37,241 bases of DNA from Treponema sp. J25 (GTDB lineage: Bacteria; Spirochaetota; Spirochaetia; Treponematales; Breznakiellaceae), in contig NZ_PTQW01000054.1 in the NCBI RefSeq assembly GCF_004343725.1, forward strand, positions 1 through 37,241, read 5' to 3'. The position numbers were made by a program, and so were the translations under genes. Every line of letters starts with the position of its first letter. Position 1 is the stretch's first letter. Positions 4,703 to 14,426 of this stretch are shown here, piece by piece. A model generated the notes under the pieces. The model ran no database searches, had not been told where the DNA came from, and worked only from the letters and a program-made list of their open reading frames with translations.

Positions 4703-7057
4703 CTACGAGTTGTCGATAAAATAGGCGAGCAAGAGAGAGATAAGGGTGGCGCTTTCCCGGGACAGGCTCTTGCCAGAATTCAAAATTCCTTCGGTGGCCA
4801 TGATAAGATACAGAAACGTGGCCAGGCCTGGATCCACCCGCTGGGCAAGCTGATAGGCCTCTTCCTCTGTGCGGGACGATCCTATAAACTGGCGAACATA
4901 GTACCGGGATATATCCAGCATCCCTTTCAGGGCTTCCAGGCTTTGCTCGTTTTCAAGCTGTTGCTGAATTGTCTGTATTTTTGCTCGATACTGTTGTTTT
5001 ATCTCTTTTTTCTTTTCTTTTGCAGAAACCCCCGAATACAGGAGACTTTTCTTGTGGCTCTGGAGGTCTAGGCGCTTAAAGAGCTGGGCAACCCGGCGGG
5101 CCACCGCAGAGGAAGAACCGCTGATGTAGGCATAAAATTTGCCATTGGGGCCCAGGAGGTTACTGAGGGCCATGGCATATTGGGTGCGAAGGCCGGGGTT
5201 AGATTCCTCTATAAGACGATGAAAAATATACTCCAGGGCCTCGTAATTTCCCAGCCGGCTGGCGGCTTCTATAGCGGTTGCCCGCAGGGCTTCGGGAATG
5301 TCCTCCCGTTGGCAATAGGCGGTGATCAGTTTTCGGGCCTCTTCGGTGCCGATGTCTCCCAGGGCCTGGAGGCAGGCCTCTTTCATTTCTTCGGAATGGC
5401 TTTTTTCTAAGGCCTCGGTAAGGGCAGGCACCGCCTGGGGATCTCGGATTTTGCCAAGCGCCCGGGCTGCGATGATCCGCATATAGGGGCTGGGATCGTG
5501 GAGTTTTTGAATAAGATGGGGGACCGCCCAGGGGGAGCGCAGTCGCCCCAGGGCTCGGGCCGCTTCTTCTCGAATTTCCGGATAGGGGTCTTCCAGACGG
5601 GCAATGATTTCCTGAAGGGCTAGCTCCCCGGTGGCTGCTTCGATAGAACGAAGGGCCTCTTCGGTTCGGGAGGGATCTTCGGTTCCACTTAAGGTTTCTA
5701 TATATGAATAGGTTTTTATGATACCGGGATTAACGAGCCGCCCCATGACAAAATCAAGCCCCTGGTCGTACGAACCCCGTACCCGACTAATAATAAAGGC
5801 AGAAAACACCACCATCACAATGGAAAGGAGTTGCACCACATGAAAGGATTGAAAATGGAGCCCCATGAAGAAAAAGTGAAAGGGGGCAAGTAAATCGATG
5901 AGGTACCCCCCGACTAAGGAGCCCCCCGCAGAAATGAAGCCCACGATCATCATGTACCAGGCTACGTAGGAGAGCCGATTCTGCGTTGGGGCCAGGGAAA
6001 GCATCATCTGGTTAACCCCTTCCCAGAAGGCCGGGGCCAGGAGTCCCGCCAGAAGAGATATGAGGGGAAGCAAGAAAAAATAGGTCCGGGGAGTAAGGAA
6101 AAAGTACCCTATCCAGCTCAGCACATGGAGACAGCCCAGGACCACCACGGGTTTTCTCCCCCACTTATCCATGACGGTTCCCCAGAAGGGGGCCGTAACC
6201 ACCCACATAAGCTGGGAAATCACATACATCACCCCGAGCCAGGTGTTAGGCGCGTGGGCCCCCTGGGGATCCACCACGAAGGGAGCCTGAAAAGGCCCTA
6301 TCAAGTTGATAGAGAAGATGGCAAGGCCCGCGGCAAAAGAAAAACGGAGAAAGTCTCCGTTCTTAAAGGGTTCAAGAGCCTGCTGGGGAGTAAAATGAGG
6401 GGTCTCCGGATTAAGGGGTTCCGGAATAGGAATATTCAAAAGGAGATCCACCACTCCCGAAATAGCCCCAATGGCAAAAATCCCCCCATACACGATGAAC
6501 ACCCAGTTTTCTGGAACCAGGTCGAGCACCATGCTGGCAAGGAAAAACCATACAATGTTCGTAATGTTGATGATGGCGGAACGACGGAGGAAAAAGGCCC
6601 CCCGGATGTTCTCGGGAAAGAGATCGGCCACCCAGCTCCACCAGCCGGCAGAACTTATGTTCATGAAAAACCAGGAAATGGGCAAACTCACCATGATAAG
6701 CCGAATTCCCCAGGGCCGGTTGGCGGGATCTGTAGCCATGAAGGCACTTAAGGCAATACTCAGGGTTAAAAAACGATGGATGAGATGGGCGGTAATAAAG
6801 AAAGGTTTTTTTCGTTTACTGTAGCCGTAAATAAAAATTGCCAGGACCTGGAAAATTCCCGTAAGTTGGAGAATGGCCACGAGGGTTCCTAATTCGGAGG
6901 AACTTGCGCCGAGCCAATTTCGGAAAAATACGTTGAAAATAGGTTGGGGCGAGCAGACGATACCCCAGATAGTGGCAAGACAGCCCGTGATGGTGCTATA
7001 CATCATTGCCCGATTCAGTTGTTGCGGGGTTAATCTGGTACAGGAAGAAGAACTCAT
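4703..7057 (-). CDS. MFS transporter fused to HEAT-repeat C-terminal domain
   Basis: A 784-residue two-part protein. Residues about 18-426 form a polytopic membrane domain with roughly 12 hydrophobic helices and an MFS loop motif at residues 293-303 (GTVMDKWGRKP). Residues about 463-650 are soluble HEAT repeats with a recurrent pattern of P-x-x-R-x-x-A-A-x-A-L-G (for example IREEAARALGRL, MRIIAARALGKI, MKEACLQALGDI). A third, charged helical region follows (about 680-715, likely coiled coil) before a final hydrophobic helical bundle. Family knowledge: MFS proteins move small solutes and HEAT arrays bind proteins, so the fusion suggests a transporter with a scaffold or gating arm in the cytoplasm. 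The substrate is unknown. No strong ribosome site precedes 7057, so the start is uncertain; Met18 or Met19 are alternatives. The RluA-like gene follows 9 bp downstream. Confidence 0.82.
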   Translation of the reverse strand: MSSSSCTRLTPQQLNRAMMYSTITGCLATIWGIVCSPQPIFNVFFRNWLGASSSELGTLVAILQLTGIFQVLAIFIYGYSKRKKPFFITAHLIHRFLTLSIALSAFMATDPANRPWGIRLIMVSLPISWFFMNISSAGWWSWVADLFPENIRGAFFLRRSAIINITNIVWFFLASMVLDLVPENWVFIVYGGIFAIGAISGVVDLLLNIPIPEPLNPETPHFTPQQALEPFKNGDFLRFSFAAGLAIFSINLIGPFQAPFVVDPQGAHAPNTWLGVMYVISQLMWVVTAPFWGTVMDKWGRKPVVVLGCLHVLSWIGYFFLTPRTYFFLLPLISLLAGLLAPAFWEGVNQMMLSLAPTQNRLSYVAWYMMIVGFISAGGSLVGGYLIDLLAPFHFFFMGLHFQSFHVVQLLSIVMVVFSAFIISRVRGSYDQGLDFVMGRLVNPGIIKTYSYIETLSGTEDPSRTEEALRSIEAATGELALQEIIARLEDPYPEIREEAARALGRLRSPWAVPHLIQKLHDPSPYMRIIAARALGKIRDPQAVPALTEALEKSHSEEMKEACLQALGDIGTEEARKLITAYCQREDIPEALRATAIEAASRLGNYEALEYIFHRLIEESNPGLRTQYAMALSNLLGPNGKFYAYISGSSSAVARRVAQLFKRLDLQSHKKSLLYSGVSAKEKKKEIKQQYRAKIQTIQQQLENEQSLEALKGMLDISRYYVRQFIGSSRTEEEAYQLAQRVDPGLATFLYLIMATEGILNSGKSLSRESATLISLLLAYFIDNS

Positions 7058-7338: not shown

Positions 7339-7929
7339 TTAGAAGACCTTTCGGGACCCCGGTTTTACGAGGGGAACCCCCTGTTTACAGAGGGCGCAGT
7401 CCGTGGCATCCCAGTTGGCCACCTGGACCTGGCAGGCGGGATAAAAGGCCCAGGGGATGGTTTCTCCTGCCGCCCGGCGATCCACGATACAGGCAAGCCC
7501 CACAATGCGGGCCCCAAGGTTTTCCAATACCCGGGCGGCCTCGCCAGAGGATTTGCCGGTGGTTACCACATCTTCGGCCATAAGAATCCTCTGCCCGGGG
7601 GTTACCTCAAAGCCCCGCCGGAGACTCATGGCGCCAGTGTCATCCCGCTCGGTAAAAAAGGCGGGAAGTCCCAGCTGGCGACCAAGCTCATAGGCCACGA
7701 TAATGCCCCCCATGGCAGGACCGCAGATCGCATCAATCTGGATTTCTCCAGAGGCCATATCGTTTTTTAGTCGGTTTGCCACTTCAGAAAGGGCCTCTGC
7801 GGCCCGATCGGGATACTGTAACAGCCGGGCGCACTGGAAATAGCGGTCCGAATGGCGCCCGGAAGAAAGCAGAAAGTGCCCTTCCAGAAGGGCCGCCGAT
7901 TCTTTTAAGAGTTCAATGGTTCGATTCAT
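7339..7929 (-). CDS. pyrE: orotate phosphoribosyltransferase
   Basis: A 196-residue PyrE that joins orotate to PRPP to make OMP, the fifth step of pyrimidine synthesis. The type I phosphoribosyltransferase PRPP loop is visible near residue 115 (MAEDVVTTGKSSGEA), and GRHSDRYFQC near residue 24 matches the orotate-side N-terminal region. The C-terminus carries a small Cys cluster (ACQVQVANWDATDCALC) of the type seen in one PyrE subgroup. GGGAG precedes the ATG. It is the last gene of the pyr operon, 14 bp after pyrD, and structured GC-rich DNA follows its stop. Confidence 0.93.
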   Translation of the reverse strand: MNRTIELLKESAALLEGHFLLSSGRHSDRYFQCARLLQYPDRAAEALSEVANRLKNDMASGEIQIDAICGPAMGGIIVAYELGRQLGLPAFFTERDDTGAMSLRRGFEVTPGQRILMAEDVVTTGKSSGEAARVLENLGARIVGLACIVDRRAAGETIPWAFYPACQVQVANWDATDCALCKQGVPLVKPGSRKVF

Positions 7930-7943
7930 GGTTGTTCTCCCTT

Positions 7944-8903
7944 TTATGCATAATTAGGTCGAATAGAAAGTTGCTCAATCCGGGTGAAGTCATGGTGGCC
8001 CATATATTCCCGTATCCCTTCGATAATCTCATGGAGTACCGGCGGCCGTGAAAAAATGGCGGTTCCCACCTGGATTGCCCGGGCTCCGGCAAGGAGAAAT
8101 TCCAGGGCATCTTCGGGACTGGCAATGCCGCCGAGGCCGATTACCGGCACCGATAGGGCCCCACAAAGTTCCCAGACCATGCGGAGGGCGATCGGTTTAA
8201 TGGCAGGGCCCGACAGACCCGCCGTGATATGTTCGAAAACCGGCCGCCGTTGGTGTATATCAATCGCCAGGGCCTTAAAGGTGTTCACCAGAGATAGTGC
8301 ATCGGCTCCGGCATCGACACAGGCCTTGCCTACGGCAATCACATCCGGGGCATTCGGAGAAAGCTTGACCATGAGGGGTTTGGTGCAGACCTGACGAACC
8401 GCGGCGGTCACCGCCGCCGCATCGGGGGGACAAAGGCCGAAGGCCATGCCTCCGGCCTTTACATTGGGACAGGAGATATTGAGTTCGATCATGTCGATAT
8501 CACTGGCCGAAAGGAGTCGGGCCCCTTCCACATACTCTTCAATAGAAGAACCGGAAAGGTTTGCAATTACCGCAGGTCCGAGCCGTCGCAATTGGGGAAG
8601 TTCCTTTTCGATAAAGGCGGGGATGCCGGGATTTTCAAGCCCAATAGAATTGATGAGCCCCGCCGCCGTTTCTTGAAGGCGAATCCCCCGGTTTCCTGGC
8701 CGGGGGTGAAGCGTAAGCCCCTTGGTACAGATGGCCCCCAGTTCTGCTACGTCGATAAGGTCCTGGTATTCCCGGCCGTACCCAAAGGTGCCACTGGCGG
8801 CAATTACGGGGTTTTTCAGTCGGACCCCTGCAATATCTACCGAGAGATCCGGTACCGGAGACGAATGGTTTCCGCCAGGGGACGGTATGTCGTGTTTATT
8901 CAT
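7944..8903 (-). CDS. pyrD: dihydroorotate dehydrogenase B, catalytic subunit
   Basis: A 319-residue class 1B dihydroorotate dehydrogenase, the FMN subunit oxidising dihydroorotate to orotate. Seen: AASGTFGYG near the N-terminus (FMN site), NSIGLENPG, the catalytic-loop region NISCPNVKAGG (the class 1B active base is the Cys), KLSPN, and GLGGIASPEDALEFLLAGA near the C-terminus (FMN phosphate site). Class 1B enzymes work with the PyrK iron-sulfur flavoprotein, which is the adjacent upstream gene. The ATG at 8903 is chosen over longer frames because GGGAG lies just upstream; the start overlaps the pyrK stop by 8 bp, so the two subunits are probably translated in a coupled, balanced way. Confidence 0.94.
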   Translation of the reverse strand: MNKHDIPSPGGNHSSPVPDLSVDIAGVRLKNPVIAASGTFGYGREYQDLIDVAELGAICTKGLTLHPRPGNRGIRLQETAAGLINSIGLENPGIPAFIEKELPQLRRLGPAVIANLSGSSIEEYVEGARLLSASDIDMIELNISCPNVKAGGMAFGLCPPDAAAVTAAVRQVCTKPLMVKLSPNAPDVIAVGKACVDAGADALSLVNTFKALAIDIHQRRPVFEHITAGLSGPAIKPIALRMVWELCGALSVPVIGLGGIASPEDALEFLLAGARAIQVGTAIFSRPPVLHEIIEGIREYMGHHDFTRIEQLSIRPNYA

Positions 8904-9714
8904 AGAAAAGCTCCCGGCTATCAAAGATAGGGCCCTCCACACAGCACCGCTTGTTACCTGAACGGGTAGGGATCGTACAGCCAAGACAGGCCCCTACTCC
9001 ACAGGCCATGCGGCGCTCCATGCTCACGTAACAGGGAACCCCCGCCTGCTGGCAGGCACGGCTTACCAGTTCGAGCATGGGCTCGGGGCCACAGGTGTAT
9101 ACTCTATGGTATGGTGCAGGGTTGAAAAAGGCGGGAATCCGCCCCCGTTCGCCATGACTCCCATCTTCGGTGGCAATCACCAGCTTCTGGGGATCGATAC
9201 CTTCAAGGCCGTACACCTCGGAACGGAAACCGGCGTACAGGTCATAGCTCCTGGGGGGCAGAGTTCGGGCTAAACAAATAAGGGGCGCGAGGCCTACTCC
9301 TCCTCCCACGAGGGCTATCCGGGGCGGTGAGGCCGCCGCTTTTGCCGCTTGTGCGGAAGAAGGGCTCCCTTCTGGCTCAGGCCAGGCCGTTCCCAGGGGC
9401 CCAATAAGCTCGATGGTATCACCTTTTTGCAACTCACAGAGTTCCCGGCTTCCCCTTCCCCGGGCGGCTATAAGAAAAGAGAGTTTCCCCTGAAAAAGAG
9501 CGGTTTCTGCGAAGGCCTGAGGTTCCCACCAGAAGAGGCTGATGGGCCGCCCCAGCAGTACCCCGCTTCGCTCTGCTTTAAGCATGAAAAACTGCCCTGC
9601 CTGGGGCTCGGGACCTTTCCAGAACACGATGAGTTCATGGATCTGCTCTGCCAGGACTCGGTTGTCCACTACCTGGCTTTTGGTATAGGTCATTCGAGGA
9701 TGGCTGCTACACAT
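8896..9714 (-). CDS. pyrK: dihydroorotate dehydrogenase B, electron-transfer subunit
   Basis: About 272 residues. It is a ferredoxin-reductase-like FAD protein that passes electrons from PyrD to NAD. Seen: LGRPISLF (FAD binding), IGPLGTAW, LVGGGVGLAPL (nucleotide binding), YTCGPEPML, and a C-terminal 2Fe-2S cluster pattern CGVGACLGCTIPTRSGNKRCC (C-x4-C-x2-C then C). The start is uncertain: 9714 has AAAGGA about 10 bases upstream, 9693 has no site, and an in-frame ATG at 9780 also lacks one. A linker with several Ala/Ser residues (SPSSAQAAKAAASPP) interrupts the domain before the nucleotide motif, an odd but probably harmless insertion. A 45-codon reading frame covers the gap from pyrF and ends inside this gene's start. 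Confidence 0.9.
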   Translation of the reverse strand: MCSSHPRMTYTKSQVVDNRVLAEQIHELIVFWKGPEPQAGQFFMLKAERSGVLLGRPISLFWWEPQAFAETALFQGKLSFLIAARGRGSRELCELQKGDTIELIGPLGTAWPEPEGSPSSAQAAKAAASPPRIALVGGGVGLAPLICLARTLPPRSYDLYAGFRSEVYGLEGIDPQKLVIATEDGSHGERGRIPAFFNPAPYHRVYTCGPEPMLELVSRACQQAGVPCYVSMERRMACGVGACLGCTIPTRSGNKRCCVEGPIFDSRELFYE

Positions 9715-9844
9715 GGGGTATGTATCCTTTGTCTGCAATTGTTCCCGCTGCCAGAACTGGAGCATCCTGGTAGGAGGCATAGGGCTGGGTCGCCCCCGCG
9801 GTACTGGGGGTATACCACGAGACTGATCCCGCCCTGGGGCCCAT
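9707..9844 (-). CDS. possible small protein between pyrF and pyrK
   Basis: An ATG frame of 45 codons beginning 14 bp after the pyrF stop and ending with a TAG that overlaps the preferred pyrK start (ATGTGTAG). GAGGAA lies about 11-12 bases upstream, a rather wide spacing. The peptide is Ala/Gly/Pro/Tyr-rich with no known family. If translated, it would couple pyrK to pyrF translation across an otherwise 144-bp gap. It may also be chance. Confidence 0.3.
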   Translation of the reverse strand: MGPRAGSVSWYTPSTAGATQPYASYQDAPVLAAGTIADKGYIPHV

Positions 9845-9858
9845 GAAAATGTTGTTCC

Positions 9859-10767
9859 TCATTTCAGTTCCTTTTTCATGCTTGCTTCTCTGATGGCATC
9901 CCGCATCTCCTTAGCGGCCTGTCCTGCCGCCTGGCATACCAGCTCTCGTACTGTTTCGGCGGGCTGGCCGGCAGATTCATGGTGTAGCCAGGCTTTTAGA
10001 ATGGACCGGGATGCGTTGACCACCCCGCCGTTTCCCCTCTGTAACAGCCGCGCGGCGTCCTCCGCTGCCCCCCCCTGGGCACCATAGCCGGGAATAAGAA
10101 AGAACAACTGCGGGTAGCGGAGCCGAATGGTCTCTGCTTCCTCTGGTTCAGTACAGCCCACCACAACCCCAAAAGCGGCATATCCAGAACTCCCCTGTGT
10201 ATCTTTTAGAAATTCTCCGAGCCGATCTCCCACCAGGGTATAGAGCCGCCTTCCATCTTCGAGCCGCTGATATTCAAAATCCCGCATTCCCTTGTTACTG
10301 GTCCGCATCAGAACAAAGGCCCCTTTCCCTTTTTGTGTGCCGTAGGTAAGCCAGGGTTCCAGAGTATCGAGCCCCATATAGGGCGAAAGGGTGACAAAAT
10401 CGGCTTCGAAGTCCCCTTCAAAATGAGCCCGGGCATATTGGAGCGCCGTGTCGGCGATATCGCCCCGTTTGATATCGGCGATGGTAAGAAGCCCTTCCTG
10501 TCGCAGATAGGAGAGGGTTCGGGCATAGGCCGTAAGGCCTTCAAGGCCCAGGGCCTCGTAATAGGCAATCTGGACCTTGTAGCAGGCCGCATAATCCCGG
10601 GTACCTTCAATGATGGCCTGGTTGAATCGAAAGAGCGCCTCGCCGACCGTGCCTGCTGTTTCTCGCAATACCGGGGGAATGTAGTCCAGGGCGGTATCAA
10701 GGCCTACACAGACAGGACCATGGGAGGCAACCCGTTCATATAAGCGGTCCATGTTATGGGTGTGCAT
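9859..10767 (-). CDS. pyrF: orotidine-5'-phosphate decarboxylase (long type)
   Basis: A 302-residue OMP decarboxylase giving UMP, the last step of the pathway. The catalytic Asp-Lys-Asp array is in ADIKRGDIADT (D98, K100, D103). Its length and the motifs CVGLDTALDYIPP and GYGAQGG place it in the longer type 2 subfamily rather than the E. coli-like short form. AGGAGAT precedes the ATG. It follows pyrC after 74 bp and is followed by a 144-bp gap holding a possible small reading frame ahead of pyrK. The operon order places the final enzyme before the DHODH subunits, so gene order does not follow reaction order. Confidence 0.95.
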   Translation of the reverse strand: MHTHNMDRLYERVASHGPVCVGLDTALDYIPPVLRETAGTVGEALFRFNQAIIEGTRDYAACYKVQIAYYEALGLEGLTAYARTLSYLRQEGLLTIADIKRGDIADTALQYARAHFEGDFEADFVTLSPYMGLDTLEPWLTYGTQKGKGAFVLMRTSNKGMRDFEYQRLEDGRRLYTLVGDRLGEFLKDTQGSSGYAAFGVVVGCTEPEEAETIRLRYPQLFFLIPGYGAQGGAAEDAARLLQRGNGGVVNASRSILKAWLHHESAGQPAETVRELVCQAAGQAAKEMRDAIREASMKKELK

Positions 10768-10841: not shown

Positions 10842-12185
10842 TCAGGAACCCCGCTGGTACACGATTTTTCCCCGGTGAATAGTAAGGAGTATCGATCCTT
10901 CCAGGGAAAACCCCGCAAAGGGGCTATTCCTGCTCCGGCTTACAAAGGGTCGCTCCCCAATGGTTTCCTTTTTGCCCAGATCTATCAGTACCAGGTCTGC
11001 CTGAAGCCCTGGCTGTAAAAGCCCCCGGTCAGGTAAGCCCAGGATACGGGCTGGATTATAGCTCATGAGGGCAGAGAGGGTAGATAAATGGAGGGATCCC
11101 TGTTTGACCAGGACGGTGTAACACACCGGGAAGGCGGTTTCAAGGCCAATGAAACCGGGGGCTCCCCTGGCTTTGTCCTCAGCTGTGTGGGGAGCATGGT
11201 CGGTGGCAATGGCATCAACCAGCCCTTCTTGGATGCCGGCTATAAGGGCTTCTCGGTCTACTTCGGTGCGAAGGGGTGGATTTACCCGACCGTAGCTTTC
11301 TGTCCCCAACTCACGGGCCCGCTCTTCCGTGAGGGCGAGATGATGAGGGGTAACCTCGCAGGTAACCTGACCGGGAGAACGCCGCCCTCGGTATTCCTGG
11401 ACCAGCTTCAGGGCTTCCCGGGTAGAAACATGGGCGATATGGATGGCGCACCCCGTTTCCTGGGCAAGGCGAAGGACCCGCTCGGTGCCGTGGTTTTCTT
11501 CTATGCGACTGTAGATTTCTCGAGAAGCCCCCTGCGCTTTAAGCTGTTCTGCTTCTTTGCCCCCAAAGTCGCAGTGGTGCGAAACGCGAATGCCCCTACG
11601 GCGGGCCTCCTGAAGGGCCGCTTGCAACACCCCTTCGTCGGCCAGATCCTTGCCATCCTCCGAAAGGAGTCGGACTACCGCCGGGTCCAGCTCCGCAAGA
11701 TGGGCTACCGAACGGCCGTCCATCCCCTGGGTAAGGGAAAGAACTGGGAAGAGGTCGATAAGCCCCAGGGCGTTCGCCCGTCCCTGGAGATGCCGGGCGA
11801 GTTCCACCGAGTCGATCACCGGTTGGGTGTTGGCCATGCAGACTACGGTGCCGTATCCGCCGGCGGCGGCGGCAAGGGAGCCGCTTTCCAGGGTTTCTTT
11901 AAGAGGAAAGCCCGGATCCCGAAAATGGGCGTGGAGGTCCACAAAGGCGGGCATACAGACCACGTCGCTTCCTAAAGCATGACCATCGATGTGAATGGTG
12001 GGCCGAGGAGATTCGGCGGCCGTGACACCTTCCCCCCGGCCAAGGGAAGAACACTGACCTTCAGGTTTTGGAACCCCCTCACTTTGAGGAAAGAGGGCTT
12101 GTATGCGCCCTCCTTCGATAAGAACGCTTCCCTGGAAATCCTGGTGGGCATCTACGAGCCGAACGCCGCTAATCAGTATGTTCAT
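10842..12185 (-). CDS. pyrC: dihydroorotase (class I)
   Basis: A 447-residue amidohydrolase that cyclises carbamoyl aspartate to dihydroorotate. Metal ligands: DLHAHFRDPG (H85, H87), the histidine sites near SHHCDF and HIAHVST, and the late Asp in DAIATDHAPHT. In class I bacterial enzymes the bridging position is commonly Asp, here in LLSEDGKD, rather than carbamylated Lys. A 35-residue insertion at about 32-66 (Gly/Pro/Ser/Glu-rich, including SLGRGEGVTAAESP) interrupts the N-terminal beta domain and is unusual. The start ATG immediately follows the TAA of pyrI with no gap, so the two are tightly coupled. Confidence 0.95.
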   Translation of the reverse strand: MNILISGVRLVDAHQDFQGSVLIEGGRIQALFPQSEGVPKPEGQCSSLGRGEGVTAAESPRPTIHIDGHALGSDVVCMPAFVDLHAHFRDPGFPLKETLESGSLAAAAGGYGTVVCMANTQPVIDSVELARHLQGRANALGLIDLFPVLSLTQGMDGRSVAHLAELDPAVVRLLSEDGKDLADEGVLQAALQEARRRGIRVSHHCDFGGKEAEQLKAQGASREIYSRIEENHGTERVLRLAQETGCAIHIAHVSTREALKLVQEYRGRRSPGQVTCEVTPHHLALTEERARELGTESYGRVNPPLRTEVDREALIAGIQEGLVDAIATDHAPHTAEDKARGAPGFIGLETAFPVCYTVLVKQGSLHLSTLSALMSYNPARILGLPDRGLLQPGLQADLVLIDLGKKETIGERPFVSRSRNSPFAGFSLEGSILLTIHRGKIVYQRGS

Positions 12186-12620
12186 TTATCGGAAATCCTC
12201 GGTGGTTCTCAGATCATCGCAGTATTCGCAGCGATAAGTGCCTGTTTTTTCATCGACCAGATGAAAAATATGGGGCGCATAGGTTTCGGTGGCGGTGATG
12301 CACCGGGGATTTCGGCAGATAAGCACGTTTTCTACCCGTTCGGGAAGGCGCAGCCGGATCTTTTCGGTTACTTTTTCGTTTTCGATAATATTCACCGTAA
12401 TGTTAGGATCGATGAGTCCGAGGACGGCAAAGTCAATTTTAATTTCGTTATCAATTTTGATGATGTCCTTGCGGCCCATCCGTTTGGATTCGGCGTTTAC
12501 CACGAAGGCTACCGTGTAGGGGGCCTTGCCGAGGCCAAGCCAGTTAAAAATCCTTAGCCCCTGCCCCGCTTTAATGTGGTCTATCACGATTCCATTCTTA
12601 ATTTTGGCAATGTTCAGCAT
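12186..12620 (-). CDS. pyrI: aspartate carbamoyltransferase regulatory subunit
   Basis: A 144-residue PyrI. The N-terminal allosteric nucleotide-binding domain includes KNGIVIDHI and the GKDIIKID-like segment RKDIIKID. The C-terminal zinc domain has the four Cys ligands (CRNPRC near residue 102 and CEYC near 131) that hold it to the catalytic trimer. Family knowledge: ATP, CTP and UTP bind the regulatory subunit and tune PyrB. AAGGAGG precedes the ATG. It lies 23 bp after pyrB and abuts pyrC. The presence of PyrI in the same transcript as PyrB implies enzyme-level feedback in addition to the leader control upstream. Confidence 0.95.
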   Translation of the reverse strand: MLNIAKIKNGIVIDHIKAGQGLRIFNWLGLGKAPYTVAFVVNAESKRMGRKDIIKIDNEIKIDFAVLGLIDPNITVNIIENEKVTEKIRLRLPERVENVLICRNPRCITATETYAPHIFHLVDEKTGTYRCEYCDDLRTTEDFR

Positions 12621-12643: not shown

Positions 12644-13570
12644 TTATGAGACGGTTCCCATAAGGGAAGCCAGCAGGGCCATGCGAATGTACATGCCGTA
12701 CTTTACCTGCTTAAAGTATACCGCCCGCGGATCCTGATCTACCTCTACGGCGATCTCATTAACCCGTGGCAGGGGATGTAGAATGAGAAGATCCGGTCGG
12801 GCGCTCTTGAGTTTTTCCCTGGTCAGGATGTAACTGTCTTTCAGGCGAATATAATCTTCTTCGTTGAAGAACCGTTCCCGCTGGACCCGGGTCATGTAAA
12901 GCACGTCCAAATCTCCCATCACTTTTTCCAATCGGTCCGTTTCAAGGTAAGGAATCCCTTGTTTTTCGAGGACCCCCTGTTTTATGTAGTCGGGGATACG
13001 TAACTCCGGAGGGCTTATGAAAATCATTCGATTTGAGGGGTAGCGCGCGAGCCCTTTGGCAAGGGAATGGACCGTGCGCCCAAACTTGAGATCCCCACAG
13101 AACCCAATGGTAAGACCTGCGGTGGTGCCCCGCAATTGCCGGATGGTATGTAAATCGGTAAGTGTTTGTGTTGGGTGATGGTGACCTCCATCTCCAGCGT
13201 TGATGATAGGCACTTCTGAATAACGACTTGCCAGAAGGGCCGCCCCCTCCTTGGGGTTTCGCATCACGATGCAGTCCGCATAACAGGCCACGGTGCGAAT
13301 GGTGTCGGCCAGGCTTTCTCCCTTTGCCACAGAACTGGACCCTGGTTCAGCAAAACCAAGACAGGAGCCTCCCAGGCGAAGCATGGCCGCTTCAAAACTC
13401 AGGCGGGTTCTGGTGCTTGGTTCAAAGAAAAGGGTGGCGAGAATTTTCCCTTTGCAGGATGAACGTAAATACACAGGGTCTTTTTCAATCCGTTCTGCGA
13501 TCTGAAACAGATCTTCCAAATCTTCTAAACTAAGATTTTCCGGTTCTATAAGATGCTTGCCCTGTATCAT
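12644..13570 (-). CDS. pyrB: aspartate carbamoyltransferase catalytic subunit
   Basis: A 308-residue ATCase joining carbamoyl phosphate and aspartate, the first gene of the operon. The carbamoyl-phosphate loop FEPSTRTR is at residues 49-56, SSVAKGES is the neighbouring-subunit loop, and [10 protein letters not shown] and HPLPRVNEI supply further active-site residues. All key residues are present. AAGGGGGG precedes the ATG. About 250 bp of leader separates the promoter (13827-13855) from the ATG, with an intrinsic terminator in the middle, so expression must depend on read-through. Confidence 0.96.
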
Positions 13571-13696: not shown

Positions 13697-13722
13697 AAAA
13701 AAAAACCGCCCCCTGGGCGGTT
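13697..13722 (-). terminator. pyrBI leader attenuator (intrinsic terminator)
   Basis: On the minus strand AACCGCCC-AGG-GGGCGGTT forms an 8-bp stem with a triloop, followed by a run of U (nine T in a row counting the last stem pair). It is upstream of pyrB, 120 bases from its start codon, and the leader-peptide stop codon abuts its first base. Strong by form. Confidence 0.88.
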
Positions 13723-13798
13723 ACTCAAAGTAATAAGAGATATGATCTTCTCCGGCTAGTCCCTGTACTGTTACTGCAATGTTTGAATCCCTTCCCAT
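13721..13798 (-). CDS. pyrBI leader peptide (25 codons)
   Basis: A short frame starts with ATG at 13798, preceded by AAGGGA, and ends in TAA at 13721-13723, overlapping the first bases of the attenuator stem. The peptide reads MGRDSNIAVTV, then QGLAGEDHISYYFE. The last codons (CAT ATC TCT TAT TAC TTT) are U-rich in RNA. In E. coli pyrBI a U-rich leader just before the attenuator makes RNA polymerase pause when UTP is low, letting a translating ribosome catch up and block the hairpin. The geometry here would work the same way; that function is inferred. Confidence 0.7.
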   Translation of the reverse strand: MGRDSNIAVTVQGLAGEDHISYYFE

Positions 13799-13826
13799 GC
13801 CGTTCCCTTACGGTTAAATTGGCCGT

Positions 13827-13855
13827 ATCCTAGCAAAAAACGATTTTTTTAACAA
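13827..13855 (-). promoter_or_regulatory. pyr operon promoter
   Basis: On the minus strand TTGTTA (13855-13850) and TAGGAT (13832-13827) are spaced by 17 bp. Six bases after the -10 comes AATTTAACC (13820-13812), a likely +1. The E. coli pyrBI transcript also begins AAUUU, which is the basis of its UTP-sensitive reiterative start; a similar start here is possible. Confidence 0.68.
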
Positions 13856-14021: not shown

Positions 14022-14426
14022 TCACTCAACTTGTGCCAGGGAACGAGAAAAGATGATACTACTTCTTAAAAATAAAGAAACCCCAAGACTTATTATTGCT
14101 ATAATAGCTGGGACAATAGAAGCCAATGGTTGGTTTAAGGTAATGCTAACAGTTACCACTGTTAAACTTCCGATACCCAATATAAAGGCAAATCTTTGCC
14201 CTGTTTTACTTGCCCTTATCTGTTCATCCACCAGTCTCTCTTCCATTTTTCTTCTATGATTCCCTTCTTCTTCAGCCATTCTCAATATCTGTTCCGCTGC
14301 CCCTGGTATAATGTCATTATAATGGGCTAATTCAGAAGAAGGAGGAAGGGGCCCTGAATAGATCGACTGTTGTTGGACAATATGCTGTTGTTGTTGAGCA
14401 AAAGGTACATTTCTTTTATTACTCAT
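14022..14426 (-). CDS. DUF2335 family membrane protein
   Basis: A 134-residue protein with the DUF2335 pattern: a Gln-rich start, SGPLPPSSELAHYNDIIPGAAEQILRMAEEE (residues about 24-55), a charged helix ending in HRRKMEERLVDEQI, and two C-terminal transmembrane helices (about 78-98 and 100-118). The function of the family is unknown; members are common in mobile or defence-like accessory DNA. The gene is AT-rich. It overlaps the upstream 64-codon gene by 8 bp, so the two probably form one unit. The preceding dispersed motifs at 13881-13926 lie on its 3' side. Confidence 0.75.
   Translation of the reverse strand: MSNKRNVPFAQQQQHIVQQQSIYSGPLPPSSELAHYNDIIPGAAEQILRMAEEEGNHRRKMEERLVDEQIRASKTGQRFAFILGIGSLTVVTVSITLNQPLASIVPAIIAIISLGVSLFLRSSIIFSRSLAQVE

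Follow-up and report, generated by a model that had tools for sequence, protein, structure and literature searches.

Attenuation of pyr genes that senses UTP and is coupled to translation is generally taught as a peculiarity of enterobacteria. Does the pyr operon of a spirochaete, Treponema sp. J25, carry such a device? The stretch of DNA analyzed here (contig NZ_PTQW01000054.1, 37,241 nucleotides, referred to as the window) has a short leader before pyrB. A sequence-only reading had described in it a promoter, an AATTT start, a ribosome site, a 25-codon frame with a U-rich end and a terminator beginning at the stop codon, without giving the strand. All these elements were present in the window sequence, and the strand is minus (Table 1). 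From 5' to 3' they are ordered as TTGTTA, 17 nt, TAGGAT, ACGGCC, AATTTAACCG, TAAGGGAACGGC, ATG, 25 codons, TAA and the hairpin, and the 17-nt spacer ends in TGC. The 5' UTR of about 22 nt contains a Shine–Dalgarno (SD)-like site, and the leader was classed as SD type; SD-like sites were also seen in leaders L005, L006 and L007. The stem starts with the last two bases of the TAA stop codon. The T-run after the hairpin consists of 7 T, and the hairpin alone folded with −13.4 kcal/mol (z −2.5).

The genes after the leader run in the order pyrB–pyrI–pyrC–pyrF–pyrK–pyrD–pyrE on the minus strand, with 133 nt between the hairpin and pyrB. After pyrE lies a gene for a 784-aa protein (4703–7057, minus strand) in which an MFS transporter domain is fused to HEAT repeats. 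The leader is preceded, in the same orientation, by a gene for a predicted DUF2335 membrane protein (14022–14426, minus strand).

Table 1. Features of the pyr leader and operon in the Treponema sp. J25 window.
Feature	Position	Strand	Basis
−35 element TTGTTA	13850..13855	−	Direct reading; top-scoring promoter of the leader; TTG...extended −10 in most relatives
−10 element TAGGAT, with TGC before the hexamer (extended −10, TGCTAGGAT)	13827..13832	−	Direct reading; TGNTANNNT recurs in relatives
AATTT at the predicted transcription start	13816..13820	−	Direct reading; not conserved in relatives
SD-like AAGGGA, 5 nt 5' of the leader ATG	13804..13809	−	Direct reading
Leader ORF, 25 codons, MGRDSNIAVTVQGLAGEDHISYYFE; ATG at 13798, TAA at 13723–13721	13721..13798	−	ORF reading; equivalents in relatives exceed shuffles
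U-rich last seven codons CAT ATC TCT TAT TAC TTT GAG, probable UTP-sensitive slow zone	13724..13744	−	T enrichment at the equivalent place in 42 leaders
Intrinsic terminator (putative attenuator): stem-loop AACCGCCCAGGGGGCGGTT 13722–13704 and T-run 13703–13697	13697..13722	−	Terminator scan and folding; hairpin type shared with relatives
pyrB, aspartate carbamoyltransferase catalytic subunit	12644..13570	−	TIGR00670, 348.7 bits
pyrI, aspartate carbamoyltransferase regulatory subunit	12186..12620	−	NF002063, 209.8 bits, above cut-off
pyrC, dihydroorotase	10842..12185	−	TIGR00857
pyrF, OMP decarboxylase	9859..10767	−	TIGR02127
pyrK, dihydroorotate dehydrogenase electron transfer subunit	8896..9780	−	NF000798, 206.4 bits, slightly under the cut-off of 219
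pyrD, dihydroorotate dehydrogenase, start codon uncertain	7944..8984	−	PF01180
pyrE, orotate phosphoribosyltransferase	7339..7929	−	TIGR00336, 72.8 bits, under cut-off, but operon position fits

Generic promoter and terminator scans of the window sequence alone performed no better than on shuffled sequences, so the significance of the leader comes from its relatives. The genome was placed in family f1 of Treponema-like spirochaetes, many of which, judging from the titles of the sequence records, presumably come from termite guts. Among 126 distinct pyrB upstream regions, 46 had a CCGCC-type terminator just 5' of pyrB. Two of these with a longer upstream ORF and two sequences from family f4 were set aside, leaving 42 distinct leaders, 39 of them with a called promoter; some promoters and ORFs were chosen by visual inspection. 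In the 42 leaders the arrangement ahead of pyrB was conserved: first the promoter, then the short ORF and finally the CCGCC...GGCGG-T-tract hairpin. The leaders ranged from about 40 to 150 nt, and the hairpin was the only RNA element that they shared. The pattern TARCCGCC-N1-12-GGCGGYTTTTT occurred once in the 3.18-Mb genome, in the pyr leader. When 36 f1 genomes were searched with the motif, six of nine matches were pyrB leaders, and the others were inside genes or after a tRNA. By eye, no such motif was found before carA or pyrE in a few relatives.

An ORF whose stop codon lies at the hairpin base was present in 23 of the 42 leaders, compared with 7.7 ± 2.4 in dinucleotide shuffles; the maximum in 300 shuffles was 16, and none reached 23. 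In most of the remaining leaders the ORF read into or through the hairpin. Relatives with the hairpin but without a leader frame, which the sequence-only reading had named as evidence against it, were mostly absent, as the hairpin was usually kept together with an ORF. The leader peptides varied freely, whereas related ones aligned in frame, with codon position 2 changing least. Such variation would be expected if the reading frame and the content of U are what counts and the peptide sequence is of no importance.

These data also bear on another explanation, in which the hairpin is an ordinary terminator of an upstream transcript, the ORF is there by chance and the pyrB promoter lies downstream of the hairpin. 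The 133-nt gap before pyrB would leave room for this, and the DUF2335 gene on the same strand ends about 300 nt upstream. However, the hairpin is separated from that gene by a promoter, and shuffling did not reproduce the ORF and stop pattern. The set of promoter, ORF and hairpin was moreover kept in many genomes whose upstream genes differ, often with just 15–50 nt from the hairpin to pyrB. We consider this explanation very improbable.

The sequence before the hairpin was rich in U. In the 42 leaders, T accounted for 48–50% of the last 20 nt ahead of the hairpin and for about 25% at distances above 30 nt (Wilcoxon p = 4e-7; p-values are indicative only, as the relatives share ancestry and independence is overstated). 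The value for the set was 49%, compared with 30% before 21 control terminators from the same DNA (p = 7e-7). The U-run of the window is moderate, at 50% T over these 20 nt; this is average among the 42 leaders, and none of the 21 control terminators reached it. T was enriched at positions 1, 2 and 3 of the last seven codons (odds 2.5, 3.6 and 2.9), showing selection for U at every codon position. The wobble ratio NNT:NNC was 99:26 near the hairpin and 121:113 further upstream (p = 2.5e-7). No single amino acid dominated near the hairpin, and none was shared by all leaders. As the enrichment covers all codon positions including the wobble base, the target of selection is U and not an amino acid.

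A ribosome-coupled attenuator could also work without UTP specificity, reading translation capacity or the supply of charged tRNAs for Phe, Tyr, Ile or Leu codons, as amino-acid attenuators do. Phe, Ile, Leu, Val and Tyr were indeed the most frequent residues near the hairpin, the ribosome geometry suits any signal, and the short leaders described below are not clearly U-rich. Yet T was also raised at the wobble base of synonymous NNT/NNC pairs, which would not be expected if the tRNA of a single amino acid were in control. The absence of an amino acid common to all leaders and the position on a pyr operon also speak against it. Attenuators of the trp and his type need an alternative antiterminator hairpin. 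Pairing of the hairpin arm with upstream sequence was no better than in shuffles, and in 38 of 39 leaders the minimum-energy fold contained the terminator. A trp/his-type attenuator was rejected, as no mutually exclusive antiterminator hairpin was found, and control without UTP specificity in general is quite unlikely.

Terminator control of pyr genes is also known from Bacillota, where attenuators bound by the protein PyrR are a common arrangement, and an unknown riboswitch could act similarly. PyrR-like repeats were seen by eye before pyrB in L102, L103 and L106. In contrast to the Bacillota systems, neither a PyrR gene in the Treponema genome nor a PyrR-type site in the leader was found; a PyrR-binding consensus in the leader would have been another finding against the sequence-only reading. 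The best match in a PyrR gene search of the genome scored 22.9 bits (cut-off, 138). An Rfam scan of the leader had no match, a weak negative for PyrR as the scan also missed the visible PyrR-like sites in L102, L103 and L106; the missing gene is the better evidence. Leaders that vary from about 40 to 150 nt, with no RNA element but the hairpin in common and no antiterminator pairing, also fit poorly with a protein- or ligand-controlled terminator, which is very improbable. Separately, in two MAG contigs of Thermotogota a purine riboswitch (RF00167) immediately precedes pyrB (L092:126–228, 71.7 bits; L105:1128–1230, 75.6 bits). The combination is odd, as the sensor is for purines and the gene for pyrimidines.

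We conclude that the leader is most likely a UTP-sensing, ribosome-coupled transcription attenuator of the pyr operon, with a probability of about three in four. The three features tested for pyrBI-type UTP-sensitive, translation-coupled attenuation were all found: an intrinsic terminator, an ORF reaching to the hairpin and a U-rich zone. The comparison strongly supports the earlier proposal that attenuation depends on translating a U-rich leader. From the sequences we infer leader translation, termination at the hairpin, polymerase pausing and UTP as the signal, in the following way. RNA polymerase would start just downstream of the −10 element, and the 25-codon ORF in the short mRNA would be translated at once. 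The polymerase would then copy about 20 U-rich bases directly before the terminator. With plentiful UTP, it would outrun the ribosome, the hairpin would fold and transcription would stop before pyrB. With low UTP, it would lose speed over the U-rich bases, and the ribosome would arrive at the stop codon. Because the stem begins within the stop codon, a ribosome at the TAA would cover the whole 5' arm, block the hairpin and let the polymerase read into pyrBICFKDE. When a stop codon was placed 5 bp upstream of a terminator in E. coli, termination dropped from about 90% to below 10% (PMC4824070), and E. coli pyrBI depends on coupling across PyrL (PMC5021804).

The same sequence-only reading had also suggested UTP-sensitive reiterative initiation at AATTT. 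The AATTT of the window lies 7–8 nt after the −10 element, near the spacing of E. coli pyrBI (TATAATGCCGGACAATTTGCCG), and the likeness of the start regions is real (CAATTTGCCGGGAGG versus CAATTTAACCGTAAGGG). Stuttering is favoured when transcription starts with A and the spacing is 8 nt (PMC6245113). However, ATTT at the start was found only in the window and in none of the other 38 of the 39 leaders with a called promoter. The two closest relatives have CCAATTA at that place, and L005 has CCAGCTTG. In E. coli carAB, a single base interrupting the T-run abolished the reiterative effect (PMC6245113). Reiterative initiation of the pyrBI, carAB or upp type, for which a conserved run of three or more T in the initially transcribed region would be expected, is thus not supported: the T-run is confined to the window, and its two closest relatives show AATTA instead. 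A combination of attenuation with reiterative initiation, like that of E. coli pyrBI, is unlikely. Reiterative initiation may work in Treponema sp. J25 alone; judging from the relatives, the conserved design does not include it.

Many leaders of the relatives appeared to be leaderless. An ATG was present 6–8 nt after the −10 element in 19 of 39 leaders, compared with 20 of 245 other TANNNT sites (p = 6e-9). About half of the leader ORFs thus apparently begin at the first RNA base; L016, L024, L029, L055, L063, L075 and L120 are examples. In this they resemble Sinorhizobium meliloti trpL and Corynebacterium glutamicum ilvB, whose leaderless leader peptides belong to amino-acid attenuators. Leaderless mRNAs may be frequent in these spirochaetes, as hinted by pyrB itself, which looked leaderless (TTG-N16-19-TANNNT-N5-8-ATG) in 9 of 80 attenuator-free loci (L020, L052, L058, L099, L100, L101, L131, L132 and L146).

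Eleven of the 39 leaders were mini-leaders, with the hairpin 45–50 nt from the −10 element; no leader fell between 51 and 72 nt, and the next was at 73. Their ORFs usually had 10–16 codons, and all 11 looked leaderless: nine belonged to the 19 leaders with an ATG at the start, and two had re-read promoters or a GTG start. Their T content was 36%, compared with 56% otherwise, indicating that the U-run is not universal. Eight of the 11 fall into a single region of the PyrB tree, so the group partly reflects inheritance; their sequences are otherwise unalike. We tentatively suggest that part of f1 may have reduced the attenuator to a minimal leaderless device, whose sensor would be the race of ribosome and polymerase over a fixed short distance, not a long U-run. 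If so, pyrimidine attenuators would come in a second type, based on geometry.

How close is the Treponema leader to known systems? As in pyrBI (pyrL) of E. coli and Salmonella, a promoter, a short leader with a U-rich zone and an intrinsic terminator precede an operon headed by pyrB–pyrI, and the ribosome is expected to block the hairpin. The sequence-only reading had called this the same design. That held for the promoter, U-rich leader and terminator, but other parts differ. The 44-codon PyrL frame of E. coli crosses the hairpin to 3 nt before pyrB, whereas the Treponema frame stops on the stem. The U-run abuts the hairpin in Treponema and lies mostly 10–35 nt before it in E. coli. The spirochaete leaders have no conserved AATTT start, and many of their ORFs look leaderless. 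The PyrBI_leader family (PF08052) did not match any of four spirochaete leader peptides, whereas the E. coli PyrL control scored 117 bits. Relatives with an ORF reading into or through the hairpin resemble the PyrL layout. The stop on the stem is closer to the E. coli rph(orfE)–pyrE leader, where the frame ends beside the U-run and terminator (CTGATTTTTAAGGCGACTGATGAGTCGCCTTTTTTTT). Translation of rph controls E. coli pyrE. There the frame is a real enzyme gene, whereas the spirochaete frame is usually a dedicated leader of 10–40 codons. L019, L023 and L030 have, in place of the leader, a conserved ORF of about 74 codons with no Pfam match that ends just 5' of the pyrB terminator, comparable to rph before pyrE.

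In the comparison with relatives that the sequence-only reading had asked for, made here with genomes of the same family, promoter, ORF, hairpin and U-rich codons were kept despite changing peptides; about half of the leaders looked leaderless, and the mini-leaders lacked clear U-richness. The arrangement was present in 24 of the 55 f1 genomes with a readable pyrB upstream region and missing from about 31; in several of the latter, pyrB follows another gene. It was found in all outer branches of the f1 PyrB tree and was clustered on this tree (15 changes, compared with 29.7 in shuffles). These two observations suggested that it was probably present early in f1 and then repeatedly lost. A similar layout with an ORF through the hairpin was seen in two f4 sequences (L084 and L123) and one f2 sequence (L138); the sampled f3 genomes had no such hairpin before pyrB.

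Either convergence or an older origin than usually thought had been suggested for the likeness to enterobacteria. The limited spread, confined in these samples to a few related spirochaete families, together with the different layout and the lack of a PyrL peptide match, makes an independent origin more likely than common descent with the enterobacterial system. An older origin is the less likely alternative in this survey, which centred on spirochaetes. A literature search found no published spirochaete pyr attenuator, in line with the earlier statement that none was known, although many subscription journals were beyond its reach and this absence is weak.

A conserved spirochaete version with another layout of ORF and hairpin and with unrelated peptides suggests that this design is easy to evolve, and it makes convergence testable. 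To our knowledge, there is little work on transcription–translation coupling in spirochaetes; the proposed attenuator would imply that this coupling is tight. The leaders with a stop on the stem, read-through, leaderless and mini forms make up a natural set of variants with which the requirements of coupling could be measured.
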